Below, piece after piece: positions 15,559-31,142 of a DNA stretch of 64,000 bases. Made by a program: the position numbers and the translations under genes. Each line of letters starts with the position of its first letter. The stretch's first letter is position 1. Below the pieces are notes generated by a model that was not told the DNA's origin, searched no databases, and worked only from the letters and a program-made list of their open reading frames with translations. This stretch comes from Actomonas aquatica (GTDB lineage Bacteria > Verrucomicrobiota > Verrucomicrobiia > Opitutales > Opitutaceae), in contig NZ_CP139781.1 of NCBI RefSeq assembly GCF_019679435.2, forward strand, positions 2,976,001 through 3,040,000. The letters run 5' to 3'.

Positions 15559-15589
15559 CGCCCGGCCCGCCAAGGCCGGGCGTTTTTTT
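15559..15589 (+). terminator. Rho-independent terminator after the M16 gene
   Basis: CGCCCGGCC (15559-15567) pairs perfectly with GGCCGGGCG (15574-15582), followed by TTTTTTT (15583-15589). The stop codon of the opposite-strand hybrid kinase lies inside the T-run (15588-15590), so the two convergent genes meet here. Confidence 0.92.
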
Positions 15590-18440
15590 AGGCCAACTCC
15601 CGCGCCTCCAGCACCTCCCGCAGACGCTCCCGTAGCGACGTGAAGGTAAAGGGCTTCGCCAGCACGCCCGCCGGATGAATCGATTGCGGCGGCAGGTTGG
15701 CGAGTTTTTGCGAGTAACCACTGATCAATACCACCGGCACCTCCGGGTTGATTTCGTTCATCATCGCATGCGCTTCGATGCCATCCATCCGTGGCATGGT
15801 GATATCGAGCAACACGCAGAAGAGCTCTGTCGAGCGCTCGCGAAAACGCTCCACGCCTTCCACGCCATCGATCGCGAGGATCACGTCGAAACCCATCTTG
15901 CGCAGCATCAGCTCGAGCACGCGCCGCAATGCGCCGTCATCGTCGACCAGCAGCACCGTGCCTTCGGCCAGCCAGGTGCCCGTTCGCGGTGTGGACGTTG
16001 GCGACGCGGCCTCCGCCTCTTCCGCGGCTCGCACCGGCAGCAACACCTGAAACGTCGCGCCTTGGCCCACCGCCGACTCCACGCGAATGCCGGCATGGTG
16101 GGCCCGCACGAACCCCTTCACCACCGCCAGCCCCAAACCGCTGCCAGTGAATTTCGTGGTATAGAACGGCTCAAAGATCCGCTGTCGCACCTCCCCGCTC
16201 ATGCCGCATCCCGTATCCTTCACTTCGATACAAACGTAAGTGCCCGGCGCCAGTTTCGCTTCCCCCTCCAGTTGAAACACATCGAGCTCCGAAGCTCCAA
16301 AGCGCCGGGCAAACGTGCGCACGCACACGTCGCCGGACTGGTCCCCGATTGCCCCGGCGCCATTGAGCACCAGATTCAGCAACACCTGCTGTGCCTGCGT
16401 GGGCGCCACCAGCACCCGTGGCAAATCCTTCGCCAAGTCGGCCGCCAACTGCACCTTCGCGCTCACACTGGGCTTCACCAGCCGCAGCGTTTCCTCGACC
16501 ACCTGATTTAAATCGACTTCGGCAAACTCAACCGGATTACGGCCGGCGTAGGTCAACATCTGCTGGCAAAGCGCCGAGGCGCGCACCGCGGTCTTTTCAA
16601 TCGTATCGATGCACTTGCTCACCTCCGTGTTCTCCGGCAGATCCAGCCGCGCCAGGTTCGCGCTGCCCACCACCGACATCATGAGGTTGTTGAAGTCATG
16701 CGCGATACCGCCCGCCAGCACGCCCAGGCTCTCATTCTTCTGCACCCGCATCAGCTCCCGCTCGTGCTTCAGGCGATCCGCCTCGGCCTGACGCTGGGCG
16801 GACAGATCCCGCACAATGAACGAAAGGATATTTGTATCCATTTCGTCATCACGATGCCCCAGCACCAGCAACAGCGCCGGCAACTCCCGCCCGTCTGGCA
16901 GCGCGACGTTGCGTTCTGCCTGCCATAGGCCGGTCGTCACCACCTCCGGCACCACCTCCCGCCGCAATGAACCAGCCAGGTCGGCCCCCAGCACTTCCTC
17001 GAGCTTCCGCCCTTCCCATGAGCCGCCGCCGACAGGCTCGCCCCAGCGGCGCTGCATCGCGGCGTTGGCGTAGAGCACCTCCCCCTTCACATCGGTCGTG
17101 AACACGCTCTCGGGGGTGGCTTCAATAATGCGGAATAAGCGCGCAATCTCTGCTTCCGCGCGCTTGCGTTGGTTGATGTCCAGGGTGAGGCCGGAGAGCC
17201 GCACCGGTCGCCCCGCCGCATCCCACTGCGACACCGATCCCCGCGCCAAAATCCAATGCCACTGGCCGGCGCGCGTCCGCATGCGCATCTCCACCTCATA
17301 CAACGGTGTATGGCCGGCCAGATGCTCCTGCAACTTCGCCTGCTCCGTGGCCAGGTCCTGAGGATGCGCCAACTCGCTCCACCGCTCCCGCAGCGGTCCT
17401 ACCGCCTCTTCATCGTAGCCGAGCAAGCTCGTCAAACGGCTGTTGCTGGTAACTTGAGACGTTTGCGCGTCCCACTCCCACAAGCCTGCCTGAGCCCCAT
17501 CGATGACGCGGTTCAACTGCGAGCGGCTGGTCGCCAATTCCGCCTCCGCCTGCTGCCGCCGCGTCACCAGCGCCCCCAGCCCCAACCCCACCCCGGCCAC
17601 CGCGATCTCGAAGAGGAAAAAGACATAGGCATAGTCCGCCGAACTGCCCGTCAGGCGCAGCCCCACCAACCCGGTCATCGTTACCATCAATGTCGCCAAC
17701 ACCGCCCCCGGCATGCCATGGATCATGCAGATCCAAACGAGCGGCAGAAACCCCAGAAAAAACGCGTGGTGCTCCCGCAAAATCGGCACCAACAGCACGG
17801 CCGCCACCGACCCTACCAACAACACACAGCTCACCACCGTCACCACCCGTCGCGCCAGCGAACCCGCCGGAGGCCACGGCACCTTGCCCTGCCCATCCCA
17901 CCACGGCGCGACAAACACCATGACTACGGGCACCACCGTGAGCAGGCCGCTCACATCTCCGATCCACCACCGCACCACCGCGATCAGGAAATCCCAGCCG
18001 GTTCCCGCCTCCGGCGTTCCTGCCCACGCCACCCCCGAACTCACCAAGGCGAGCAGCAGGGGGGACCCCAGGATAGCCCCGAAAAACACCACCGACTCGC
18101 GCAACGACCCGGGCAACAATCGGGTCCCCGACCACCGCCGCACCGCCCAAGCCGTCAACGCAAAGCCGCCCGTGATTAGACTCGGAAACACCCACGTTCC
18201 CCACGCCGCCGGCGACGCGCCGGTTGAAAGCGCGCCAAGCACATTGGCGAGCCACACTACTCCGGCATACCGGGGCCCCATAATCACCAACATCGCGAGC
18301 GCCAAACCCGCCGGGGCATACCAGATGGAAACCGCTACAGCCCCTCCCGATACCTCAAACCATGCCGCCAAATGATGGGTGAGCAGGTGCAGACCCACGT
18401 AAGCCAAACAAAGCAGCGTAGACCGTGACGACTTGGTCAT
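15588..18440 (-). CDS. MASE1-PAS-PAS hybrid sensor histidine kinase with receiver
   Basis: A 950-residue membrane hybrid kinase. Residues about 5-295 form a MASE1 sensor with eight or so helices (SIWYAPAGLALAMLVIMGPRYAGVVWLANVLG is diagnostic; only part is quoted by position). Two PAS domains follow, at about 305-425 (AGLWEWDAQTSQVTSNSRL) and 430-550. The dimerisation helix has GGIAHDFNNLMMSVVG with His581. The ATPase domain has KDTGCGMSGEVRQRIFEPFYTT and GSGLGLAVVKGFVRAH. The C-terminal receiver (about 825-945) has VLLVDDDGALRRVL and phospho-acceptor Asp879 in CVLLDITMPRMDG. The output is unknown, because no separate response regulator lies next to it; phosphorelay to a distant partner or autonomous feedback is likely. 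Confidence 0.92.
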   Translation of the reverse strand: MTKSSRSTLLCLAYVGLHLLTHHLAAWFEVSGGAVAVSIWYAPAGLALAMLVIMGPRYAGVVWLANVLGALSTGASPAAWGTWVFPSLITGGFALTAWAVRRWSGTRLLPGSLRESVVFFGAILGSPLLLALVSSGVAWAGTPEAGTGWDFLIAVVRWWIGDVSGLLTVVPVVMVFVAPWWDGQGKVPWPPAGSLARRVVTVVSCVLLVGSVAAVLLVPILREHHAFFLGFLPLVWICMIHGMPGAVLATLMVTMTGLVGLRLTGSSADYAYVFFLFEIAVAGVGLGLGALVTRRQQAEAELATSRSQLNRVIDGAQAGLWEWDAQTSQVTSNSRLTSLLGYDEEAVGPLRERWSELAHPQDLATEQAKLQEHLAGHTPLYEVEMRMRTRAGQWHWILARGSVSQWDAAGRPVRLSGLTLDINQRKRAEAEIARLFRIIEATPESVFTTDVKGEVLYANAAMQRRWGEPVGGGSWEGRKLEEVLGADLAGSLRREVVPEVVTTGLWQAERNVALPDGRELPALLLVLGHRDDEMDTNILSFIVRDLSAQRQAEADRLKHERELMRVQKNESLGVLAGGIAHDFNNLMMSVVGSANLARLDLPENTEVSKCIDTIEKTAVRASALCQQMLTYAGRNPVEFAEVDLNQVVEETLRLVKPSVSAKVQLAADLAKDLPRVLVAPTQAQQVLLNLVLNGAGAIGDQSGDVCVRTFARRFGASELDVFQLEGEAKLAPGTYVCIEVKDTGCGMSGEVRQRIFEPFYTTKFTGSGLGLAVVKGFVRAHHAGIRVESAVGQGATFQVLLPVRAAEEAEAASPTSTPRTGTWLAEGTVLLVDDDGALRRVLELMLRKMGFDVILAIDGVEGVERFRERSTELFCVLLDITMPRMDGIEAHAMMNEINPEVPVVLISGYSQKLANLPPQSIHPAGVLAKPFTFTSLRERLREVLEARELA

Positions 18441-19855: not shown

Positions 19856-21016
19856 ATGCCCCGGACTCTACCCTCCCTTCTCACCGCCTTGTTGCTCTCC
19901 GCCGCGACCGCCTTCGCCGCCGATGGCAGCACTCCGCAACCCCAAGCCCTCGGCTCGCCGCTACCGGATTTTGAACTGCCCGGCATCGCGCCCGACGGCT
20001 CGGTGCAGACCTACACTCCGGCCGACTTCGCCTCCGCCAAGCTCCTCTGCATCATCTTCACCTGCAACCACTGCCCCACCGCGCAGCGCTACGAAGAGCG
20101 CATCAAACAACTCACCACCGACTACGCGCCCCAGGGCGTCGCCGTCGTCGCCATCAACCCCAACAACGCCGAGGCCGTGCGTCTCGATGAGATGGCCTGG
20201 ACCGATGTGGGCGACAGTTTCGCCGACATGCAGATCCGCCACGCCCACAAAGAATTTAACTTCCCCTACCTCGACGACGGCGAGACCCAGGCCATCTCCC
20301 GCGTCTTCGGCCCCGTCGCCACCCCGCACGTCTTCATCTACGACCAGGACCGCAAGCTCGCCTTCCAGGGCCGCATCGACGACGCCGAGCTCCCGCAATA
20401 CATCAAACACCACGACACCCGCGACGCCCTCGACGCCCTGCTCGCCGGCCACGCGCCGGAAGTGCAGACCACCCGCGTCTTCGGCTGCTCCGTCAAGTGG
20501 GCCGAGAAGGCCGAAGGCTACAACAAGCTCTGGGCCCAACGCCTGAAGGAAGAACCCGTCACCCTCGAGCACGCCACCGCCGCCGACTTCGTCGCCCTCC
20601 GCGAAAACCAGGACTCCGGCAAGATCCGCGTCATCAACGTCTGGGCCACCTGGTGCGGCCCCTGCGTCTCCGAGTTCCCCGATCTCGTCGACCTCAACGT
20701 CACCTTCCGCAACCGCGACTTCGAACTCGTCACCATCGCCGCCGAGTATCCCAAAATGGAAGCCAAGGCGCTCAAGTTCCTCCAGCAGCAGCACGCCTCC
20801 ATGCAGAACTACATCTTCGGCGACACCGACAAATACGCCAACATCGAGGCCATCGATCCCGAGTGGAGCGGCGCCCTGCCCCACACTCTCGTGATCGACG
20901 AAAAGGGCGAAGTCATCTTCCGCCACACCGGCCCGATCGACTTCATCGAGCTCCGCCGCCTGCTCCTCCCCGCCCTCGAAGCCATCACTCCCTGGGGCGG
21001 CCTCGACGGCAACTGA
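19856..21016 (+). CDS. secreted protein with two thioredoxin-like domains
   Basis: A 386-residue protein with a signal peptide (MPRTLPSLLTALLLSAATAFA), hence periplasmic. The first domain (about 30-185) is AhpC/redoxin-like with a CNHC motif (Cys70, Cys73), a form common in proteins annotated as redoxin or alkyl hydroperoxide reductase-like. The second domain (about 225-375) is TlpA/ResA-like with WATWCGPC (Cys267, Cys270). Both CxxC pairs are intact. It probably reduces disulfides or peroxides in the periplasm; no DsbD-like electron donor is nearby. The start at 19856 was chosen because the signal peptide begins there. A bidirectional terminator follows. Confidence 0.85.
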   Translation: MPRTLPSLLTALLLSAATAFAADGSTPQPQALGSPLPDFELPGIAPDGSVQTYTPADFASAKLLCIIFTCNHCPTAQRYEERIKQLTTDYAPQGVAVVAINPNNAEAVRLDEMAWTDVGDSFADMQIRHAHKEFNFPYLDDGETQAISRVFGPVATPHVFIYDQDRKLAFQGRIDDAELPQYIKHHDTRDALDALLAGHAPEVQTTRVFGCSVKWAEKAEGYNKLWAQRLKEEPVTLEHATAADFVALRENQDSGKIRVINVWATWCGPCVSEFPDLVDLNVTFRNRDFELVTIAAEYPKMEAKALKFLQQQHASMQNYIFGDTDKYANIEAIDPEWSGALPHTLVIDEKGEVIFRHTGPIDFIELRRLLLPALEAITPWGGLDGN

Positions 21017-21046
21017 GCGCTGGCGTATCCACGATTCCCCGACACC

Positions 21047-21080
21047 AAAAACGCCGCCCCACACCGGGGCGGCGTTTTTT
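21047..21080. terminator. bidirectional terminator between redoxin and S9 genes
   Basis: ACGCCGCCCC (21051-21060) pairs perfectly with GGGGCGGCGT (21066-21075) around ACACC, with AAAA before and TTTTTT after. It can stop transcription from both sides, which fits the convergent genes. Confidence 0.93.
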
Positions 21081-21099
21081 CGTCGAACCTCTATTCGAC

Positions 21100-23100
21100 T
21101 CAGAGGTGCTTCTGCAGGAAGGCCTCGATACCTTCGAAGAGTTGCAGGCGGGTCTGCAGCAGCGAGCCGCCCGTCAGCGTGAGCACCTCGAAGGGCTTCT
21201 GCTTCGCGCGCAGCTCGGCGACGAGCGCCTCGGCCTCCTTTTGCTCCACACTCTCACCACCGAGCTCGCGCACCACCAGCAGCGGCGCCTGGAGTTGCCC
21301 GATGCGCTCGGCCGGTGAGATGGCGTTGAACTGCGCCCGATCGGTCGCCGGGTCGCCGAGCAGCTTGAAGATCGCGCCGTAGCTCGGGTCGTCCTCGCGC
21401 TCGAGGCCGATCTCATTGGCCAGGCGAGTCCAATCGTAGATGCCGGAGAAGGTCACGCCGCAGGCATAAAGCGTCGGGTCATCAACCATGCTTGCCACCG
21501 CGAGGTAGCCACCAAAACCACCACCCGAGATCGCCACCCGCTTCTCGTCGATCATGCCCGTGCGCAGCACCGTCTTGACCGCGCGCGACACGTCGAGGCG
21601 CATCATCGCAAAGTCCGCACGCGCCTTCTCGGCGAAGAGCCAGTCGTAGCCGGTCGAGCCGCGATAGTTCGGTTGCAACACCGCGTAGCCGCGGGCCGCC
21701 AGCACCTGCACCTCGGCGTCAAAACCCCAGGAGTTGCGCGCCCACGGGCCACCATGCGGCAGCACCACGAGCGGAGCCGGGTTGTCCTTCGACGCGCCTT
21801 CGGGCAGCGTCACGTAGGCGTCGAGCTTCTTGCCGTCGGCCGTGGTGTATTTGATCACGCTGGTCGGACGCAGGTCGTCTTCGTTGATCCAGGGACGCTC
21901 GCTGGCCAGCAGGCCCACCGTGCGCTTCGTGAGGTTGACCGTGTAGTAGGCCGGCGGATTGCGGTCAGAGGACACGGCCACAAGCAGCAGGTCACCCGAG
22001 TTGCTGCCATCCAACAGCTGCACGAGTTTGCCCGGGAAGAAGGCACTCAGCACGCCCTGCAGTTTGCGGTAGCTCTCGTTGAACCACACCGAGGTCGGCG
22101 CCGCCCGGTCATAGATCGCGCCCACAATCGTGTGGGACGCCGGGTCGCGGTAGATCGCGCCATTGAAGTCGTAGTTCTCGTCGCGCAGCACCAGCTCACC
22201 CACTTCGCCCGTGAGCGAATCCATCAGGAACAAGCCCGCCGGCTCACCGTCGCCACTGCGCAGCCGCACCAGCAACTCGCCGATCTGTTGGCCGACATCG
22301 ACGATGTCGATCTCCTCGAGATCGAGCGCCGACGGGATCCAGCCGGTGCCGTCCCACACGTGCAACACCACGCGGCCATTCTCGTCGGCCGTGTAAGCGA
22401 AACCGAGGTTGCCCTCCGCATCGGCGAGGTAACCGAGCTGGGTGCGACCGGCCGGCGTCGGGACCACACGCAGCACGTGGGCGTCATTAAATTCCGCCAC
22501 CTGCGCCCAGGCCTCCTCGTTTTCTTCGCCCCGCACATCGATGAAACCGCCCTGGTTCAGCGCGGCGTCGAGTTCGACCACCGCGGGTTGGCCGTCCGGG
22601 CCGCCGACCGAAACCCACACCAGGGGCTTCATCGGCGAGCCCGCCGGCACGCCCACCACAGTGGCGGCGCCGTATTGGAAAACCGGATAAGCCCCGGCCG
22701 GATCGTTGACGTCCACCACCAGCAGACCGAGTTGCGCGCCGCCGAGATTGGCGAGCGTGTAGGCGATATGTTGATCATCGAGCCACCAAAACCCGGTCAC
22801 CTGCACACCGTTGCCGCCGCCGATGAAGACCTCGCTGCCATCCACGCCGATTTCCTTCACCATCAGCTGGTAGGTCTCGCCGCCGCCCGAAAAGAGCGCC
22901 GCGACGTGGGTGCCCGCGCGGTTGAGCGCAGGAACCTGGATGAGCGGAGACCGCAAAAAGGCTTCGACCGGAGTCGGGCCGGCGACGGTGGCTTCGGCCG
23001 CCGTCGGGGCGGGAGAGGAAGAGTCCTGGGCGACCACCGGCGCGACGAGCGCGGGCAGCAGCAACCACAGGGACCAACGACAAAAACGCGGGAGTTTCAT
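21100..23100 (-). CDS. S9-family peptidase homologue lacking all three catalytic residues
   Basis: A 666-residue protein with a signal peptide (MKLPRFCRWSLWLLLPALVAPVVAQ quoted in part by position; start ATG 23100). It has an N-terminal propeller-like half and a C-terminal alpha/beta-hydrolase half that keeps LPHGGPWARNSWGFDAE and LQPNYRGSTGYDW. The nucleophile elbow reads SGGGFGGY, with Gly528 where the neighbour has Ser525 in MGGSFGAY. The region of the catalytic Asp reads VRELGGESV instead of AHGKDDKV, and the SHGM region of the catalytic His is replaced by GGSLLQ. So the scaffold is kept but the triad is gone. It is probably a non-catalytic binding or regulatory relative of the active peptidase encoded just upstream. 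Confidence 0.88.
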   Translation of the reverse strand: MKLPRFCRWSLWLLLPALVAPVVAQDSSSPAPTAAEATVAGPTPVEAFLRSPLIQVPALNRAGTHVAALFSGGGETYQLMVKEIGVDGSEVFIGGGNGVQVTGFWWLDDQHIAYTLANLGGAQLGLLVVDVNDPAGAYPVFQYGAATVVGVPAGSPMKPLVWVSVGGPDGQPAVVELDAALNQGGFIDVRGEENEEAWAQVAEFNDAHVLRVVPTPAGRTQLGYLADAEGNLGFAYTADENGRVVLHVWDGTGWIPSALDLEEIDIVDVGQQIGELLVRLRSGDGEPAGLFLMDSLTGEVGELVLRDENYDFNGAIYRDPASHTIVGAIYDRAAPTSVWFNESYRKLQGVLSAFFPGKLVQLLDGSNSGDLLLVAVSSDRNPPAYYTVNLTKRTVGLLASERPWINEDDLRPTSVIKYTTADGKKLDAYVTLPEGASKDNPAPLVVLPHGGPWARNSWGFDAEVQVLAARGYAVLQPNYRGSTGYDWLFAEKARADFAMMRLDVSRAVKTVLRTGMIDEKRVAISGGGFGGYLAVASMVDDPTLYACGVTFSGIYDWTRLANEIGLEREDDPSYGAIFKLLGDPATDRAQFNAISPAERIGQLQAPLLVVRELGGESVEQKEAEALVAELRAKQKPFEVLTLTGGSLLQTRLQLFEGIEAFLQKHL

Positions 23101-23299
23101 GGCAGAATGCAAGGGACAGACAGAAGGGGTTGGGTCGGGAAAACGGGAGCGGAACCGCGCCCCCCCCGACACGAGTTCGGGCGCAGGGTTTCCGCCAAGG
23201 GAACGTTCACCTCAACAAACCCCGCCCCCCAGCGCACGCCGATTTTTTCAGCAGCGAGCGCCGTTGAGGGTGAGTTGCCGGGCAGCCGGGACGAGCCGG

Positions 23300-25303
23300 T
23301 TACAGGTGCTTAGCGAGGAAGGCCTCGATCTTTTCGTAGAGCTCCACCTGATTTTCGAGATGCTGCATGCCGTGCGACTCGCGGGACACGAAGTGCGTCT
23401 CGTGCGGCACACCGTGCTTCTCCAACTGGCTCACCAGCCGCTTTGATTCGAGCCAGGAGGCGACTTTGTCGTCCTTACCGTGGGCGACAAACATCGGCAC
23501 CTTCATGTTCTCCACAAAATGGATCGGCGAGATTGCCCGGAATTTCTCCGGTTCATCGTCGGGGTTGCCCAGCTTCAGCTGCAACCGGCCGAACTGCGGC
23601 GAAAAGTGCTGATTAAACGCCTCGTCGCGGAACACCTCCACCCAGTCATACACCCCGGCGTTGCCCACCGCGCACTTGTAGAGGTCGGGCTCGTGCACCA
23701 CCCCCGACAGCGCCAGGTAAGCCCCGAACGACCCCCCCATGATGGCCACGCGTTTGGGATCCACGAAGCCGGTTTTGAGAATCGCCTTCGTCGCCGCCGT
23801 CACATCGGCGTGCATTTTCAAAAAGTCCCACTGGTCGGATTCCGGAAACATCCAGTCGTAGCCGGGTGAGCCCCGATAGTTGGGCTGCAATACGGCGTAG
23901 CCTCGACTCGCCAGAAACTGCGCCTCGCCATCAAACCCAAAGGTGTCGCGCACCCACGGCCCGCCGTGCGGCAACACCACCATCGGCACAGGGGACTCCT
24001 TTGAGGCGCCCTGCGGCAGGGTCAGGTAGGCGTCGAGCCGTTTGCCATCATCCGTCTTGAATTTCACAATGCTCACGCCCGCCATCCGCGCCGGATCGAT
24101 CCACGGCAGCGCCGCCTTTAACGGCCCCAACGACTTTTTCTCCAGGTCTACGATGTAATAGGTGACCGGCTCCCGATCCGAATAAACCGAGAGCACAAAC
24201 ACCGTGTTCGCCTCGTTCGTGCTGTAGATTCGCACAACTTTCTTCGGGAAGCTGCTTTTGAAAATCTTGTCGAGCGACGCATACCCTTCATCGAACCACA
24301 CCGACGCCGGAATCGCGCGATGGTATTGGAACCCCACGACCCGTCGGGAACCACGATCACGGAGCGGCCCGGACGTCACATCATACCCCTTGTCGCGCAA
24401 AATCTCCGCCCCGTATTCCCCGGTCTGCGCGTCCACAAACCGCACCGCGCTCGGCTGACCGTCGTAAAGCTTCTGACTCACGATCAATTGCCCCGGCTCG
24501 TCCGCTGTCGCCAGCACCTCGTTGGCCTCCATGTCGATCGGCGAGGGTTCCCAATCCTCCCCATCATAATGATGCAGGGTGAACACGCCCTGCCGGCCGG
24601 TGTAGCTGTAGGCCAGGTGCCCCATGCGGTCGGAGAAGTAGCCCGCGATCAAACCACCTTCCGGCACCGGAAAACGCCGGCGCACCACCCGGCGGTTCTG
24701 ATCCTCCGCCACGCTGTAGAGGTTAAAATTGTTCGGATCGAGACTCACCCAGCGCCCGTTCTTGATATCCGTATTCACCGTTACGATACCACCGTCACGC
24801 CCGGCCCCCTCACCCGAAACCCAGACATAGGGCGAGAGCGGATCGTCCTCCGGCCGGCTGATAAAACGGTGCATGCCGTATTGTATCACCGGATACGGTC
24901 GCGACATGCTCTTGATCTCCACCGCGCCCAGCGCCACACCCCAGTATTTCTCCGCCGAGACCGAATAGATCAGCCGTTCGTCGTTCAGCCACCGCACGCC
25001 GCCCACATCGGAGTCGCCCAACCCGGTCATGACCTTGGTTTCATTGGTCTTCAGATCGATCACCATCAGGCGCGAGACATCCAAACCGCCCGACACGATC
25101 GCGGCCACATGCGTGCCGGAGGGGTTGAGCTGCGGGCTGCTGAAATAGGCCGGGCGGAAAAAATCCTGAATCGGCACCGGCTCATTCGCCGGCACGGGGT
25201 CCGTGCGCTCGAGGTCAAGTTTGTCGGCCGCCGCGGCGACCAGACAGGCAGACAGATACAGGGCGGCAAAGCGACCGCCGCGGGAAGACGCGAATCGAAA
25301 CAT
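23300..25303 (-). CDS. S9-family (prolyl oligopeptidase/DAP-like) secreted serine peptidase
   Basis: A 667-residue protein with a signal peptide ending in VAAAADK. The C-terminal alpha/beta-hydrolase domain (from about residue 400) has LPHGGPWVRDTFGFDGEAQFL, the oxyanion-region YRGSPGYDW, and an intact triad: Ser525 in MGGSFGAY, Asp612 in HGKDDKV and His644 in ESHGMQ. The N-terminal half is propeller-like. The family cleaves peptides, usually dipeptides, in the periplasm. It lies 200 bp upstream of a close paralogue on the same strand that has lost the triad. The pair shares order and length, so tandem duplication followed by loss of activity in one copy is the simplest reading. Confidence 0.93.
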   Translation of the reverse strand: MFRFASSRGGRFAALYLSACLVAAAADKLDLERTDPVPANEPVPIQDFFRPAYFSSPQLNPSGTHVAAIVSGGLDVSRLMVIDLKTNETKVMTGLGDSDVGGVRWLNDERLIYSVSAEKYWGVALGAVEIKSMSRPYPVIQYGMHRFISRPEDDPLSPYVWVSGEGAGRDGGIVTVNTDIKNGRWVSLDPNNFNLYSVAEDQNRRVVRRRFPVPEGGLIAGYFSDRMGHLAYSYTGRQGVFTLHHYDGEDWEPSPIDMEANEVLATADEPGQLIVSQKLYDGQPSAVRFVDAQTGEYGAEILRDKGYDVTSGPLRDRGSRRVVGFQYHRAIPASVWFDEGYASLDKIFKSSFPKKVVRIYSTNEANTVFVLSVYSDREPVTYYIVDLEKKSLGPLKAALPWIDPARMAGVSIVKFKTDDGKRLDAYLTLPQGASKESPVPMVVLPHGGPWVRDTFGFDGEAQFLASRGYAVLQPNYRGSPGYDWMFPESDQWDFLKMHADVTAATKAILKTGFVDPKRVAIMGGSFGAYLALSGVVHEPDLYKCAVGNAGVYDWVEVFRDEAFNQHFSPQFGRLQLKLGNPDDEPEKFRAISPIHFVENMKVPMFVAHGKDDKVASWLESKRLVSQLEKHGVPHETHFVSRESHGMQHLENQVELYEKIEAFLAKHL

Positions 25304-25471
25304 GGCAACTTCGGTTTTGGGGTGGGCTGAGGGGGTAGTGACGGCCAGTCGGGGCCATCACGCCGGATCTCACCTCCCCGCGCAAGCCTCCGCCGTTAAC
25401 TTCGAACAACTCACCCCTTCCCCTTCGCGCCGACTTCGCCACCGTGTTCATCGTTCTACCCCTCTCCGCTC

Positions 25472-26845
25472 ATGAAATCCTTTCGACTCTCCGTTCTGCT
25501 CGGCCTGTCTGCCCTGCTCGCCTTGCCCTCCCAAGCCGCCGATGCGGACAAGCCCGCCGCGCCGACCGTGCCGGAATATGAACTCGCCCTGCCCATGTAT
25601 GACAACGGCCTGCCCGGCCGCGGCCCGCTTCGCCGTCACACTTGGTTTCAAAACCTCTGGCAAAGTCGCCGCGCCAAATGGGCCAAGCAGGTCGAGGCCG
25701 ACCAGGGCGCCGTCGTCTTCTTCGGCGACTCCATCACCCAGGGCTGGGAGGACGACATGGCGACCGCCTTCCCCGGCCTGAAACTCGCCAACCGCGGCAT
25801 CTCCGGCGACACCACCCGCGGCCTGCTCCTGCGCCTCCAACACGACGTGCTCGCGCTCAACCCCAGCGCCATCGTCCTGCTCATCGGCACCAACGACATC
25901 GAGGAAGGCGCCCGCAACGACACCATCACCAAAAACGTCGAGCTGCTGGTCGAGCGCATCCAGGCCCACAGCCGCGCCGTGCCCATCATCCTCAACCTCG
26001 TCTTCCCCAGCTCGCCCAAAAAGGAACGCCCGCCCCACTACATCACCGATCTCAACGCCCGCTACCAAGGCGCCTTCAAGGGCGACCCGCAGGTCATCAT
26101 CCTCGACACCTGGACCCTCTTCGCCGACGCCGAGGGCAACGCCAAACTCGCCGAGATGCCCGACCTCCTTCACCCCAACGAGATCGGTTACGCCAAGTGG
26201 CGCGACGCCCTCTGGCCCATCTTCGCCACGCTCGGCCTCGTTGAAACCACCACCGATCTCGACTGGCAACCCGACCCCGGTTTCACCGCCCTCTTCAACG
26301 GCCACGACCTCACCGGCTGGGGCTACCGTCCGACCTCCGCGGCAGACCGAGAAGCCGCGCGCGGTTGGCAAGCCGCCGATCCCAATGCCGCCCCCTGGCC
26401 GTTCGTCGAGGAAGCGGTCAACTTCGACGGCCTGCGCGAATCGCCCGACGGTCGCTACCGCGCCGTCAATGGTCGGCTCGTGGTCACCACCCCCGCCGAA
26501 GGTCGCCTCATTCAACAGCTCTGGACCCAAGCGGAGTTCGGCACCGACTTCGAACTGCGCCTCGAATTCCGCGCCACCCCCAACGCCGACAGCGGCGTCT
26601 ACGTGCGCGCCCCCCAACTCCAATGCCGCGACTACCAGCTCGCCGGTCCGTGGAAGGACCTCCCGCACTACCGGCCCGGCGATTGGAACGAGCTCATCAT
26701 CACCGTGCGCGGCAACACGCTTCACGCGACCTGCAACGGTGACGAACTTGATGCCGGCCTCACCCTGCCCGACACCGGCCCCATCGGCCTCGAAGGCGAC
26801 CGCGGCCAGATGGAATACCGCCGCATCCAACTGCGCCCGCTTTGA
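25472..26845 (+). CDS. secreted fusion: GDSL/SGNH esterase + DUF1080 domain
   Basis: A 457-residue protein with a signal peptide (MKSFRLSVLLGLSALLALPSQA). Residues about 75-260 are an SGNH hydrolase: GDSITQGW with nucleophile Ser87, the Gly in NRGISGDTT, the GTND block, and DLLHPNEIGY with catalytic Asp and His. Residues about 265-457 are a DUF1080 (3-keto-disaccharide hydrolase/LamG-like) domain, starting GFTALFNGHDLTGWGY and ending with GPIGLEGDRGQMEYRRIQL. The fusion suggests deacylation combined with binding or cleavage of a carbohydrate outside the cytoplasm. The stop codon lies inside a TGAAATTTCA palindrome that begins a large inverted repeat. Confidence 0.9.
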   Translation: MKSFRLSVLLGLSALLALPSQAADADKPAAPTVPEYELALPMYDNGLPGRGPLRRHTWFQNLWQSRRAKWAKQVEADQGAVVFFGDSITQGWEDDMATAFPGLKLANRGISGDTTRGLLLRLQHDVLALNPSAIVLLIGTNDIEEGARNDTITKNVELLVERIQAHSRAVPIILNLVFPSSPKKERPPHYITDLNARYQGAFKGDPQVIILDTWTLFADAEGNAKLAEMPDLLHPNEIGYAKWRDALWPIFATLGLVETTTDLDWQPDPGFTALFNGHDLTGWGYRPTSAADREAARGWQAADPNAAPWPFVEEAVNFDGLRESPDGRYRAVNGRLVVTTPAEGRLIQQLWTQAEFGTDFELRLEFRATPNADSGVYVRAPQLQCRDYQLAGPWKDLPHYRPGDWNELIITVRGNTLHATCNGDELDAGLTLPDTGPIGLEGDRGQMEYRRIQLRPL

Positions 26846-27092: not shown

Positions 27093-27878
27093 ATGCCCGC
27101 TTTACCCCGACTGCGACATAACGTCGGTCTCGCGTTGGCCTGCGTCATTCCTTGCACGCTGCTGACTCCCGCCTTCGCCGACACCGCCCTTAATGATGTG
27201 CAAAAAGCCGCGACCGAATGGGCGCGACTCCGATCCGAGACCACCCGTCTCGAAAAAGCCTGGGACTCCGAGCGCGACCTGCTGACCGCGTCACTCGCCG
27301 GTCTCGGCGTGCAGGCCGATCAACTCGCCGGCCAGCGCGACACCCTCGCCGCCCAGACCGAATCCGCCCGCACCGAGATCGACGCGCTCACCGCCACCAA
27401 TCGCGAGACCGCCGCTCGCATCGAAGAAGCCGGCACCCGCATCGACGCGCTCTCCGCCCAACTCATCGCGCTGCGCCCCGCGCTCCCGCCACGCCTCTCC
27501 GCCGCGCTCGAGTTGCCCTACCGCAGCCTCGCCAGTCCCGACCTCACGCCGGCCGAACGCATGCGGCACACGATGACGATTCTCAACCAGTGCAATCGCT
27601 TCAACCAGACCTTCGTCCTCTCCGAGGAAATCCTCGCCGTCACACCCGGCGGTGAAGAGCGCCTTCTCGAGGTGCTCTATTGGGGCCTCGCCCAAGGTTG
27701 CGCGCTCGACCGCTCCGGCGGCGAAGCGTTCGTCGGCCGCGCCGTCGATGGCATCTGGTCCTGGCAACCCGCACCTGATCTCGTCGGCGAACTGACCGAC
27801 CTGATCGACATCCATCAGGACAAGGAAGCCCCCGCCTTCGTCACCATCCCCGCGCAGATCACGGAGGGCGCCCAATGA
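27093..27878 (+). CDS. DUF3450 periplasmic coiled-coil protein of the Ton system
   Basis: A 261-residue protein with a signal peptide (CVIPCTLLTPAFA) and a long heptad-rich region from about residue 30 to 130, ending in a globular part with TPAERMRHTMTILNQCNRFNQ and a VLYWGLAQGCALDRSG motif. This is the arrangement of DUF3450 proteins, which nearly always precede a long ExbB-type protein in TonB operons of Gram-negative bacteria. It probably links the energising complex to periplasmic partners. It overlaps the next gene by 4 bases, so the two products should be made in fixed ratio. Exact role unknown. Confidence 0.85.
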   Translation: MPALPRLRHNVGLALACVIPCTLLTPAFADTALNDVQKAATEWARLRSETTRLEKAWDSERDLLTASLAGLGVQADQLAGQRDTLAAQTESARTEIDALTATNRETAARIEEAGTRIDALSAQLIALRPALPPRLSAALELPYRSLASPDLTPAERMRHTMTILNQCNRFNQTFVLSEEILAVTPGGEERLLEVLYWGLAQGCALDRSGGEAFVGRAVDGIWSWQPAPDLVGELTDLIDIHQDKEAPAFVTIPAQITEGAQ

Positions 27879-29311
27879 GCCGCACGCACCTCACCGCCGC
27901 GACCACGTTCGCCGGCCTCCTCCTCGCGACCGCCGCCTCCGCCCAGACCGCCGAGTCCATCGCGCGCTACGACGCCATTCTCCGCCAGGCCGCCACCGCT
28001 TACACCGCCCGCATCGAACAGGCGACCCAGACGCTCAACGACACCCGCGTCCGCATCGGCGAAGAAAAGATCCCACTCCTAAACGACCTCCGCGCCCTCG
28101 AAGACCGCATCCTTAATCTCCGCGCCGAGATCACCACCTTCCAAACCAACACCGCCAACTTCGCCAACGACAAGGCGCGTCGCGAACAGGAAGCCGAGGC
28201 CCAACGCCTCAACATCTCCTACTTCGCCGGCACCGCCGCCGAAGGCCTCTCCACCCTCACCAGCTCGCTCGGCAACGTGGAAGCCGAACACTGGGCCGAG
28301 CAGGTTGGCACGCTCCGCAATCGCCTCGATCCCGTTGGCGGCATTCCCGACATCTCTGCCGCCGTCGAAACCGCCGAGATGCTCTACGCCCGCGTCGAGT
28401 CGCTCATCGGCGGCCACGCCCGCGCCGGCGTTGCCGTCTCTGCCGAGGCCCACGAACTCGTCAACGGCACCTTCGCCTTCTTCGGCCCCGAAACCTTCTT
28501 CGTCGGCGACAACGGCATCGCCGGCACCGTGCGCGCTCGCGACGAAGGCGCCGCGCCGATGGTCTATCCGCTCGCCGGTTGGGACGCCGCCGACGCCGCC
28601 GCGTTTGCCGCCGGTCAACCCGCCGCCATCCCCGCCGACGTTTCCGGCGGCAAAGCCCTGCAACTCGCCGAGAGCCAGGGTAACTGGATCGATCACATCA
28701 ACAAGGGCGGCATCGTCGGCTACTCCATCCTCGGCCTCGGCGCCTTTGCCCTGCTCACCGCCTTCGTCAAGATGGTCGACCTGCGCAACCTCTCGGTCGA
28801 CGCCCCCGCCGCTACCCTGCCTGTGCTCACCAGCGTGACCGAGGAGAGCCCCGCCGCCGCTGAGGGCAAATTGAGCGGCCTGCGCATAACCAGTCGCGAG
28901 CTCTTCGCCACCGGCATCCGCCACGCCGCCAAACCCAAAGACGTGATCGAGGAGCACCTCCACGCCTTCATCCTCCGCGAGCGTCTGCACCACGAGCGTT
29001 GGTTGCCCATGCTCGCCGTCATCGCCGCCGCCTCACCCCTCCTCGGCCTGCTCGGCACCGTCGTCGGCATGGTGAAGACCTTCACCCTCATCACCGTCTT
29101 CGGCACTGGCAACGCCGCCAAACTTTCCAGTGGTATCTCCGAAGCCCTCGTCACCACCGAGCTCGGCCTCACCGTCGCCATCCCGACCCTCGTCCTCCAC
29201 GGTCTGCTCTCCTACCGCACGCAGAAAAACCTGTCGCTGCTGGAACGCTACGGCGTCGAGTTCATCACCGCCAACGAGGACCGCAAGGTCACCCACCCAA
29301 CGAAGTCCTGA
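27875..29311 (+). CDS. long ExbB/TolQ-type proton channel with periplasmic coiled-coil domain (TtpC-like)
   Basis: A 478-residue protein. It has a signal peptide (LLLATAASAQ), then a periplasmic part of about 250 residues that begins with heptad repeats (about 30-110). After that come one helix (about 285-305, GIVGYSILGLGAFALLTAFV) and the MotA/TolQ/ExbB core (about 370-470) with LPMLAVIAAASPLLGLLGTVVGMVKTF and ITTELGLTVAIPTLVLHGLLSY-type helices (written in part). It is the TtpC group of long ExbB proteins seen in three-component Ton systems. It would form the proton channel that powers TonB. It is coupled to DUF3450 by a 4-base overlap. The gap to the next gene holds an 8-3-8 hairpin element. 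Confidence 0.88.
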   Translation: MSRTHLTAATTFAGLLLATAASAQTAESIARYDAILRQAATAYTARIEQATQTLNDTRVRIGEEKIPLLNDLRALEDRILNLRAEITTFQTNTANFANDKARREQEAEAQRLNISYFAGTAAEGLSTLTSSLGNVEAEHWAEQVGTLRNRLDPVGGIPDISAAVETAEMLYARVESLIGGHARAGVAVSAEAHELVNGTFAFFGPETFFVGDNGIAGTVRARDEGAAPMVYPLAGWDAADAAAFAAGQPAAIPADVSGGKALQLAESQGNWIDHINKGGIVGYSILGLGAFALLTAFVKMVDLRNLSVDAPAATLPVLTSVTEESPAAAEGKLSGLRITSRELFATGIRHAAKPKDVIEEHLHAFILRERLHHERWLPMLAVIAAASPLLGLLGTVVGMVKTFTLITVFGTGNAAKLSSGISEALVTTELGLTVAIPTLVLHGLLSYRTQKNLSLLERYGVEFITANEDRKVTHPTKS

Positions 29312-29336
29312 TGGCTACCTCCGCTACACCCATCGC

Positions 29337-29365
29337 TGTAGCCGGGGTCGGTGCCCCCGGTCCCC
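29337..29365. repeat. 8-3-8 hairpin element (copy 1), between the two exbB genes
   Basis: TGTAG is followed by CCGGGGTC (29342-29349), loop GGT, and GCCCCCGG (29353-29360), then TCCCC. The stem has one mismatch. The layout matches the copies near 32,650 and 37,720-37,843. No T-run follows, so it is not a standard terminator and the operon probably reads through it. Confidence 0.55.
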
Positions 29366-29385
29366 ACCCCGTTTCGACCTGACTC

Positions 29386-29880
29386 ATGGAAGCCCTCCGC
29401 GATCTCCTGCAGCAAGGTGGCCCCGTCATGGTGCCGCTCATCCTGCTGTCGATCGTGCTCTACGAGCGCTGCTTCGGACTCTACTTCAGCGTGCGCCGCG
29501 CCAGCCGCCTGCTCACCCAGGATCGCGCCGCCGGGCTCGATTCGCTCACCGCGGTGCGCATGACCCGACTCGATCTGCAGGAGACCTTTCGGCAGCAACG
29601 TTTCATCATCAGCACGCTCATCGCCGCCGCGCCGCTCATGGGTCTGCTCGGCACCGTCACCGGCATGATCTCGACCTTCGAGAGCCTCATCGATCGCAGC
29701 GGTCAAAAGTCCTTCGAAGGCCTCGCCGACGGCATCTCCGTCGCCCTCATCACCACCGAGACCGGCCTGGCGATCGCCATCCCCGCCGTGATCCTCCTCC
29801 ACTTCGCCCACCGCCATGTGCAGCACGGCGAACAATCCCTCGTCAAACGCGAGAGCGACCTCATGGCCACCGCCGCCTGA
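29386..29880 (+). CDS. exbB: short ExbB-type proton channel subunit
   Basis: A 164-residue MotA/TolQ/ExbB protein with three helices. The N-terminal helix is about residues 12-30 (VPLILLSIVLYERCFG); the pair is in TLIAAAPLMGLLGTVTGMISTF (about 78-100) and LITTETGLAIAIPAVILLHF (about 120-140). The short loops place most of the soluble part in the cytoplasm. It is a standard-size second ExbB after the long TtpC-like one, which is the usual arrangement in these operons. It should assemble with ExbD (next gene) into the energising pentamer-dimer complex that drives TonB. Its start codon follows the hairpin repeat by 20 bp. Confidence 0.92.
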   Translation: MEALRDLLQQGGPVMVPLILLSIVLYERCFGLYFSVRRASRLLTQDRAAGLDSLTAVRMTRLDLQETFRQQRFIISTLIAAAPLMGLLGTVTGMISTFESLIDRSGQKSFEGLADGISVALITTETGLAIAIPAVILLHFAHRHVQHGEQSLVKRESDLMATAA

Positions 29881-29921
29881 CCCTTTCACCGCCGTTTGCC
29901 TCACGTTCACCCCGCTTCCGG

Positions 29922-30341
29922 ATGCTCAAAACCACTCGCTCCGATTCCCGTTACCAGGCCGTCGCCATCGATCTCGCCCCCATGATCGACTGCGTGTTCA
30001 TCCTGCTCATCTTCTTCATCGTCACTTCGGTTTTTGTCGAAGACCCCGGCGTCGAAGTGGAACGCCCCGACACCCGCGGCGAAGCCGTCACCGATCGCAA
30101 CGCCCTGCTCCTCGCCATCTCCGCCGACGACGGCATCTACTTCGACGGCCAGCAAATCCGGATGGACCAAGTCGCCGCCACCCTGCGCCAGGCGTCGTTC
30201 TCCGATGAGGCCACGGTGATCATCCGCGCCGACCGTCATGCCAGCCACGGCACCTTTGCCGGCGTCTACTCCGAAGCCAAACGCGCCGGCCTCGCCCACG
30301 TCCAATTCGCCACCGCCCGCCTAGGCTCCGCCCAACCCTGA
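29922..30341 (+). CDS. exbD: ExbD-type biopolymer transport protein
   Basis: A 139-residue protein with a short cytoplasmic start, a single helix at about residues 20-40 (IDLAPMIDCVFILLIFFIVTS), and a periplasmic domain of about 95 residues. Asp24 in APMIDCVFILLIFF is the proton-carrying residue of the ExbD/TolR family and is present. The periplasmic part ends with TVIIRADRHASHGTFAGV, the usual conserved strand. It partners with the ExbB proteins and TonB. The start at 29922 was chosen because the family N-terminus begins there; a longer frame upstream overlaps exbB. A repeat-rich 90-bp gap separates it from tonB. Confidence 0.92.
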   Translation: MLKTTRSDSRYQAVAIDLAPMIDCVFILLIFFIVTSVFVEDPGVEVERPDTRGEAVTDRNALLLAISADDGIYFDGQQIRMDQVAATLRQASFSDEATVIIRADRHASHGTFAGVYSEAKRAGLAHVQFATARLGSAQP

Positions 30342-30351
30342 ATACATGTCA

Positions 30352-30421
30352 GATGTAGGATGTAAGATGTAAACCATCACACACCCTACATCTTACATCC
30401 TACATCACACATCTTACATCT
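30352..30421. repeat. heptamer-repeat hairpin between exbD and tonB
   Basis: The left arm GATGTAGGATGTAAGATGTA (30352-30371) is the perfect reverse complement of 30387-30406 across a 15-nt loop. The right side is five tandem heptamers TACATCN (30387-30421); the left side is three heptamers of the complementary form. It fills nearly the whole gap and starts 11 bp after the exbD stop. It may tune expression of exbD relative to tonB. Confidence 0.85.
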
Positions 30422-30431
30422 CCCGCCCGCC

Positions 30432-31142
30432 ATGCCTTCCTCCCCCGTCCCCCTCGATCTTGATCCCGCCAGCGGGCTGGGTCGTCAGGTCGCCAAATGG
30501 GGCGCCGGGTTGGGCATGAGTCTGGTCATTCTCTTCGTCCTCGCTCACGTGCAGCGCACCGAGATCGTGCCGCCGCCCGCCCCCATCGCCGATCTGCAGA
30601 CCATGGTGCTGGAAGACCCGCCCCCACCGCCGCCCGAGATCGCCACCCGCGAGCCCCCACCGCCCACCGTGCTCGACCTCGAACCGATCGCTTCCGACAA
30701 CGTCGTCAAAGTCGCCGTCGCCCCGCTCACCTACGAGATCCCGCTGCCCGAAGCCACGCCCCTGCTCGAGTTCAACCTGGCCGACTTCAAACCCGACATG
30801 GATTCGGGCGAGAACAACCCCGACCACATTTTCCAATTCCGCGACGTCGACCAGCGCCCCGTCATCGTTCATCGCAAAAAACCCGACGTATCGAACGACT
30901 TGATACGCAAGGTTCCCGACCCTCGCGTGGTCGTGAGCATGGTCGTCACCCGTGGTGGCTCCGTGCGCAACATCAGCATGGTCCAGTCCTCCGGTAACAA
31001 GGAGCTGGACCGCATCGTCGCCGACGCCCTCGCCGAATGGCGTTTCCGTCCCGCCATCCGCAATGGCGTCGCGGTCAACTGCCTCGTTATCCAATCCATC
31101 GTCATCAAACAGTCCCGCGGTGGTTCACCCTTCAGCATCTGA
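30432..31142 (+). CDS. tonB: TonB-family energy-transducing protein
   Basis: A 236-residue protein. It has a short N-terminal cytoplasmic part, one helix (about residues 25-43, WGAGLGMSLVILFVLAH), a Pro-rich periplasmic stretch (EDPPPPPPE and REPPPPTV near residues 63-78), and a C-terminal TonB domain (about 150-235) with RVVVSMVVTRGGSVRNISMVQSSG (in part), the ADALAEWRFRPAIRNGVAV block and a final strand. It transmits ExbB/ExbD motion to outer-membrane TonB-dependent receptors. No receptor gene is present in this window, so the cargo is unknown. It follows the heptamer-repeat element by 10 bp. Confidence 0.93.
   Translation: MPSSPVPLDLDPASGLGRQVAKWGAGLGMSLVILFVLAHVQRTEIVPPPAPIADLQTMVLEDPPPPPPEIATREPPPPTVLDLEPIASDNVVKVAVAPLTYEIPLPEATPLLEFNLADFKPDMDSGENNPDHIFQFRDVDQRPVIVHRKKPDVSNDLIRKVPDPRVVVSMVVTRGGSVRNISMVQSSGNKELDRIVADALAEWRFRPAIRNGVAVNCLVIQSIVIKQSRGGSPFSI

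Follow-up and report, generated by a model that had tools for sequence, protein, structure and literature searches.

Why would a bacterium keep a peptidase gene whose product has lost all three catalytic residues? The question is raised by a tandem pair of genes for serine peptidases of family S9 in Actomonas aquatica (Opitutaceae). The pair lies in a window of 64,000 nucleotides (G000:C1:2976001-3040000; "the window" is the whole stretch of DNA that was analysed) from a 6.1-Mb single-contig genome. One protein, here called the dead copy, lacks the catalytic Ser, Asp and His, and its tandem partner carries all three. A sequence-only reading of this stretch had described two S9 genes at this place, with Ser525, Asp612 and His644 in the partner and, in the dead copy, Gly528 in SGGGFGGY, VRELGGESV for AHGKDDKV and no SHG block. 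Alignment and codon positions bore out this description:

21100..23100, minus strand: dead S9 copy, 666 amino acids from its ATG (open reading frame call, Pfam, AlphaFold2 (AF2) model and fold matches)
23300..25303, minus strand: tandem partner with intact triad, 667 amino acids, transcriptionally upstream of the dead copy
21517..21519, minus strand: GGT codon of Gly528 in the dead copy, replacing the nucleophile Ser (SGGGFGGY); Gly in 7/7 orthologues
21247..21273, minus strand: VRELGGESV in the dead copy (residues 610-618), replacing the Asp loop AHGKDDKV (alignment)
21171..21172, minus strand: junction in the dead copy at which the catalytic-His (SHG) block is gone, a four-residue gap (alignment)
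23729..23731, minus strand: codon of the catalytic Ser525 of the partner
23468..23470, minus strand: codon of the catalytic Asp612 of the partner
23372..23374, minus strand: codon of the catalytic His644 of the partner

The two proteins are 37% identical over 666 aligned columns (E 3e-159). Residues of the dead copy are counted from the ATG at 23100, which the earlier numbering also fits; the longest open reading frame of this gene comprises 690 amino acids from an in-frame GTG at 23172. A signal-like stretch follows the ATG at 23100, with the signal peptides of both S9 proteins assessed by eye only. The N-terminus of the partner (25303-25240, minus strand) holds LSAC, which resembles a lipobox; the partner in the genus-mate G020 does not keep it.

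The dead copy has clearly remained an S9 protein. The Pfam domain PF00326 matched it with 91.7 bits and the partner with 144.6 bits, at a cut-off of 22.6, which places both in the family. According to the AF2 models (mean pLDDT 81.9 and pTM 0.82 for the dead copy, 87.9 and 0.88 for the partner) and to Protein Data Bank matches over nearly the full length, both consist of a beta-propeller followed by an alpha/beta-hydrolase domain. The nearest solved sequence relatives are acylaminoacyl peptidases, with 5l8s at E 5e-28 for the partner and 4.5e-24 for the dead copy, and 5l8s was also the top Foldseek match of both models. VIA-align placed the dead copy on 8wt1 with Z 29.2 and a root-mean-square deviation of 4.3 over 526 residues. 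Since the model without a triad still matches S9 folds, the predicted fold is retained without the triad. Both proteins stayed far below the equivalog cut-off of 900 bits of the NCBIfam dipeptidyl-peptidase Dpp5 (NF053518), with 47.4 bits for the dead copy and 72.9 for the partner. By its residues S525/D612/H644 the partner would count as an active peptidase; the dead copy does not (Gly528, no Asp, His block gone), and 7/7 orthologues are alike in this.

These orthologues come from a search of the genus in which all first-look candidates were scored. The dead copy was present without an internal stop in seven of the eight genomes, the window's own included; five of the genus-mates are metagenome assemblies. 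The six other orthologues are 51-58% identical to the window's dead copy. All seven carry SGGGFGGYLA, have G, A or N instead of Asp at the place of Asp612, and are missing the catalytic His. The losses are repeated in orthologues and thus reflect neither chance nor sequencing error. Frameshifted or absent orthologues would have spoken against a retained role; the orthologues proved unbroken, and the sole genus genome in which no match was found at E 1e-50 (G150) is 69% complete. In 7/7 genomes, the dead copy adjoins the partner in the same gene order. For G145 this order was deduced across a contig break: the partner lies on one contig that is cut at its end, and its C-terminus is found at a contig end beside the dead copy. 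A search of 150 genomes of the family revealed no member of the dead-copy clade outside the genus; the next matches were at most 42% identical, the best of these being intact, and in a contig search the next match outside the genus reached 41%. The dead clade therefore looks confined to the genus.

Purifying selection on the dead copy is strong. We used a codon model of the GY94 type with F3x4 (own script) to estimate omega, the ratio of nonsynonymous to synonymous rates; the synonymous divergence dS was saturated for most pairs. Omega of the dead copy was 0.048 at dS 2.29 (G128-G111), 0.045 at dS 3.24 (G090-G145), and 0.066-0.080 in three other pairs with dS <4, and omega=1 was rejected in 21/21 pairs, with likelihood ratio test (LRT) values from 281 to 628. 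The neighbouring redoxin gene gave an omega of 0.031 (G128-G111). For the partner, omega=1 was rejected in 15/15 pairs (LRT >=237), with dS saturated in all of them. Selection for a non-catalytic role, as proposed earlier for the dead copy, is thus supported by an open frame in seven of eight genomes, by an omega between 0.045 and 0.080 wherever dS was <4 (five pairs), and by the finding that the conserved residues hold no replacement triad, as judged by conservation only and not by model geometry. H449 and H65 are the only His residues shared by all seven orthologues, which have no invariant Cys or Lys.

The partner has fared differently across the genus. Written in the order Ser, Asp, His, its triad reads SDH in two genomes, the window's and G020. 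Elsewhere, it reads QNW in G090, SSW in G111, NIW in G064 and GSW in G128. The G145 partner has the contig break at its Ser place and Asn instead of Asp, and its tail shares the EGWG of the other four. The partner is thus dead in five of the seven pair-carrying genomes (G064, G090, G111, G128 and G145); the exchange of His for Trp (EGWG) is common to 5/5, and the Ser place has drifted. The G128 partner (G128:C51:11631-13637; loci L044, L055 and L187) additionally carries one TGA and one TAG, which reflect either decay or an assembly error. Apart from the pair itself, the full search of the genus yielded only relatives of 30-32% identity in the five dead-dead genomes (two in G064, one each in G090 and G145, none in G111 and G128). 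Three of these four relatives are readable as SDH, one of them carrying a TAG; the remaining one is truncated. The five genomes thus gave no further close member with an intact triad, an absence that is less sure for G090 (91% complete) and G145 (82%). Pairing with the active copy, one of the two roles suggested earlier, is not supported as a conserved one, the partner having lost catalytic residues in 5/7 genomes; the other, binding of peptides, may apply. As the dead copy persists beside dead partners, its role appears to be independent of an active twin, and its constraint in these genomes does not stem from regulating one.

The two proteins differ in which parts of the old active site have stayed constrained. 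Within the dead clade (seven rows), the mean pairwise identity was 0.59 for the propeller, 0.93 for the nucleophile elbow, 0.88 for HGGP and 0.91 for NYRGS, versus 0.44 for the Asp loop and 0.41 for the His loop. Two sets of intact relatives served for comparison. Set A (nine rows, propeller 0.57) showed 0.82 for the elbow, 0.83 for HGGP, 0.79 for NYRGS, 0.77 for the Asp loop and 0.66 for the His loop; the corresponding values of set B (six rows, propeller 0.46) were 0.88, 0.88, 0.85, 0.75 and 0.62. In the four readable dead partners, the elbow (0.59) and HGGP (0.56) were the less conserved parts, with NYRGS at 0.78, the Asp loop at 0.68 and the His loop at 0.73. When the sets of stretches were slid along the domain, the contrast for the Asp and His loops of the dead copy was equalled in 4/259 shifts with set A and 7/259 with set B, and that for HGGP and elbow of the dead partners in 7/259 (set B) and 21/259 (set A). 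The Asp and His loops of the dead partners did not differ significantly from those of the intact proteins (126 and 151 of 259 shifts). The rows are few (seven and four) and the stretches were picked after alignment, so that the test is descriptive. In the dead clade, elbow, HGGP and NYRGS are no less conserved than in the intact enzymes. The patterns indicate that constraint was lifted from the Asp/His side in the dead copy and from the elbow side in the dead partner.

Loss of the triad is not restricted to this pair. With the intact partner as query, 45 of 252 genomes of the family matched at E 1e-120. Loci from this census and from earlier whole-genome searches, but not those from the contig search, were aligned, and rows scoring <340 bits to the partner were left out; this gave 77 rows, to which the read-through G128 partner was added. 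The tree comprised 76 rows, because a duplicate of the G128 partner and an intact G108 fragment, both short, were removed. The family censuses scored the best seven or the best four candidates per genome, so that member counts are lower bounds, and all trees are quick trees with open forks and no bootstraps. The triad could be read in 74 rows; it was intact in 47, whereas 27 had lost at least one residue, and all 27 fell into one clade of 54 rows. Parsimony required seven changes of triad status, or eight losses if regain is barred, with open forks taken as drawn. An earlier tree of 80 rows that centred on the dead copy (with 54 rows intact, 24 lost and two unread) likewise gave seven changes.

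The losses fall into several groups. The window's dead clade (seven rows) lacks all three residues, and the dead partners form a clade with four readable rows. A further clade of 11 rows from other Opitutaceae genera (loci L028, L030, L034-L037, L136, L137, L140, L196 and L199) has lost His in 10/11 and Ser in 4/11 (kept in seven) and has kept Asp in all 11; its triads read SDN, SDG, SDD, SDV, GDH, GDG, GDD and DDY. Judging from these residues, it is likely another line of pseudopeptidases. Five losses concern single rows (RDP, ATM, DDV, SDR and SDQ), two of which stand in tandem pairs: in G206 (L192, G206:C72) an intact SDH is followed by SDR, and in G202 (L193, G202:C41) DDV is followed by an intact SDH, the gene order being opposite to that in G206. 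In the tandem pairs of G159 and G133, both members are intact. G014 holds two diverged S9 relatives without a triad, L153 (G014:C342) and L033 (G014:C359), which read G-N and ATM; one of them adjoins another S9 fragment at a contig end.

The surroundings of the pair also have conserved features:

23214..23242, minus strand: conserved non-coding element TCGGCGTGCG...GGGTTTGTT, between the partner and the dead gene
27093-31142, plus strand: DUF3450-ExbB-ExbB-ExbD-TonB set beside the S9 pair

The element occurs once per genome in all seven pair-carrying genomes (at the same place in loci L010 and L055-L059), with 0-1 mismatch. Its pattern was built from these seven copies, which match by construction; what the search can test is how many copies a genome has and whether other genomes lack the element. 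Of 143 genomes from other genera, 12 gave matches, all with three mismatches, compared to 10 for a reversed control pattern. Rfam gave no match for 23000-23450 up to E 1, and a hairpin in the element had no covariation support, with a compensatory change at one of 11 pairs in one sequence. A consensus scan of 20900-25600 returned a single sigma-70-like site, which is on the plus strand (0.9 expected), and five terminator-like sites (3.6 expected). The motif GGAAC-N17-CGTC is found in the intergenic stretch of 5/5 genomes with a dead partner and of 0/2 with an intact one. We take it to resemble a promoter of extracytoplasmic function (ECF) sigma factors (GGAAC, about 16-17 bases, CGTC). The search of the window for ECF-type motifs used a 16-base gap and thus did not cover the N17 form. 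In the simplest reading, the element is probably the control region of the dead gene.

On the side of the dead copy, the neighbour is a redoxin/thioredoxin-like gene in 5/7 genomes, with other genes in G090 and G145. The partner side holds a GDSL plus 3-keto-disaccharide-hydrolase gene and the DUF3450-ExbB-ExbB-ExbD-TonB set. DUF3450 and the first ExbB lie there in all six genomes with that flank (the G090 contig ends there), and the GDSL gene in four of these six (not in G064 and G145). A link of the pair to uptake is possible. Further away, at 15588-18440 on the minus strand, the window encodes a hybrid histidine kinase with MASE1, PAS and receiver domains.

What, then, may the dead copy do? 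Our preferred, though tentative, answer is that it is a secreted pseudopeptidase of the S9C fold that is selected for binding rather than cutting, most likely in a complex of which the tandem partner is another subunit. Going by the signal-like N-terminus, it would be exported and, in the periplasm or outside the cell, could assemble with the partner into a hetero-oligomer. The mouth of the propeller and the former active-site cleft might then hold a peptide or another protein, and the elbow side with PHGGPW, NYRGS and SGGGFGGY would form the contact surface of the dead copy. With an intact partner, as encoded by the window's genome and by G020, such a complex may in addition cleave its bound ligand. 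This reading draws on the triad loss in all orthologues, the modelled fold, the purifying selection, the constant tandem order, the intergenic element, the survival of the dead copy beside dead partners, the different relaxation of the two copies and the renewed origin of pairs with one dead member in G206 and G202. Several points weigh against it. Both the complex and the ligand are things that we infer. The tandem layout could persist merely as a result of the duplicates having arisen as neighbours, and the stops in the G128 partner may mean that the pair is breaking up there. The intergenic gap and the element hint at separate control of the dead gene, and such control would suit a role of its own as much as a shared one. 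The seemingly higher conservation of HGGP and elbow in the dead copy than in the intact proteins is not significant (88 and 213 of 259 shifts). Finally, of the four readable tandem pairs outside the genus, two have one dead member, as stated, but two are intact-intact; these pairs were chance encounters rather than the outcome of a systematic search, and the 12-row His-poor clade was not covered.

The strongest rival is a free-standing secreted binder, which would serve in peptide or glycan capture or in adhesion without needing a partner, the tandem being a trace of the duplication. We consider this quite conceivable, if less probable. Selection on the dead copy is strong whether its partner is active or not, the conserved element just before its gene suggests separate control, and the nearby DUF3450-ExbB set followed by ExbB, ExbD and TonB is what one would expect for nutrient uptake. 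However, both copies have been kept together in 7/7 genomes, even after the second had lost catalysis, and the parts of the old site that have relaxed are not the same in the two; a two-part complex would account for this more readily. Carried further, the same observations would fit a binding machine made entirely of dead peptidases, in which an S9 homo-oligomer became a hetero-oligomer through tandem duplication, one subunit lost catalysis and took on binding, and the second subunit later lost it too in part of the genus. One dead subunit would then keep the nucleophile-elbow and oxyanion side, while its counterpart would keep the side of the Asp and His loops, with Trp replacing His, and the two may jointly form a new ligand site. 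This scenario we regard as unlikely at present. Somewhat harder still to defend is a dead copy that acts as regulator or structural subunit of an active partner, comparable to dead paralogues by which an enzyme is activated. The intact partners of the window's genome and G020 and the one-dead, one-intact pairs of G206 and G202 would suit this role, but the dead copy is strongly selected beside a dead partner in five genomes, for which the genus search revealed no close intact substitute (with the lesser certainty for G090 and G145 given above).

A hidden enzyme with migrated catalytic residues is very improbable. A candidate nucleophile would be Ser525 of the dead copy, which lies three residues before the old nucleophile place and is invariant in the seven orthologues (Met in the window's partner); the elbow, too, remains highly conserved. 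In the model, however, this Ser is predicted to lie in a strand (517-527), off the turn, and a conserved general base is lacking: the sole invariant His of the hydrolase domain is H449 in the PHGG loop, and there is no invariant Cys or Lys. Least credible of all is that the gene is decaying or was misassembled. The relaxed Asp and His loops of the dead copy and the stops in the G128 partner might point that way, but seven separate assemblies share the same losses in open frames. Together with the rejection of omega=1 in every pair, these seven frames led us to rule out a pseudogene or sequencing error for the dead copy.

S9 folds that live on without catalysis are already known. DPP6 and DPP10 are inactive homologues of DPP4, with Gly replacing Ser630 in DPP10 (PMC9820350), and DPP6 partners with the channel Kv4.2 (PMC8566240). 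DPP10 is a remote sequence relative of both window proteins (E 6e-5 for the dead copy) and DPP6 of the dead copy (E 4e-4). Neither is among the structure matches listed for the two models, which says nothing against kinship. The dead copy shares with them an S9 fold with a replaced nucleophile, a common feature rather than a sign of descent. It differs in being bacterial, in having acylaminoacyl peptidases and not DPP4-type (S9B) enzymes as nearest relatives, in standing in tandem with a paralogue and in having lost all three residues; channel partners do not apply. It is thus similar in kind to DPP6 and DPP10, but not a member of their group. The acylaminoacyl or S9C-like peptidases (5l8s, 1ve6, 8wt1 and 7c72), which rank among the top matches of both proteins by sequence and by fold, differ from the dead copy in having Ser, Asp and His, and identity amounts to about 15-20% over the aligned length.

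Other dead paralogues offer looser parallels. The prozyme of Trypanosoma S-adenosylmethionine decarboxylase (AdoMetDC) is a catalytically dead paralogue that pairs with the live enzyme (PMC5201418). There, the live partner is required, whereas five genomes of the present genus have only dead copies. The AdoMetDC fold is unrelated to S9. Inactive metallopeptidase homologues keep peptidase folds for interactions or scaffolding (PMC11266112); they belong to another peptidase class, and here a serine-peptidase subfamily shows repeated losses within one bacterial family. A survey of prokaryotic prolyl oligopeptidases (POP) describes the triad as highly conserved in all its bacterial POP subtypes (PMC4522959). 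Our literature search, with most subscription journals outside its coverage, found no S9 pseudopeptidases in Opitutaceae and no bacterial dead-live or dead-dead S9 tandems. To our knowledge, S9 pseudopeptidases are known mainly from animals.

For the family, the result warns that a peptidase label given from homology alone would be wrong for 27 of the 74 members read. Within one bacterial subfamily, triad status has changed at least seven times by parsimony, and one dead clade has been kept across a genus, with dead-dead tandem pairs in part of it. The subfamily provides a natural series of intact-intact, intact-dead and dead-dead pairs, by which it becomes testable when a fold is worth keeping without its chemistry. 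That relatives retain the dead copy, some of them beside a partner that is dead as well, suggests that it has a useful job other than cutting.

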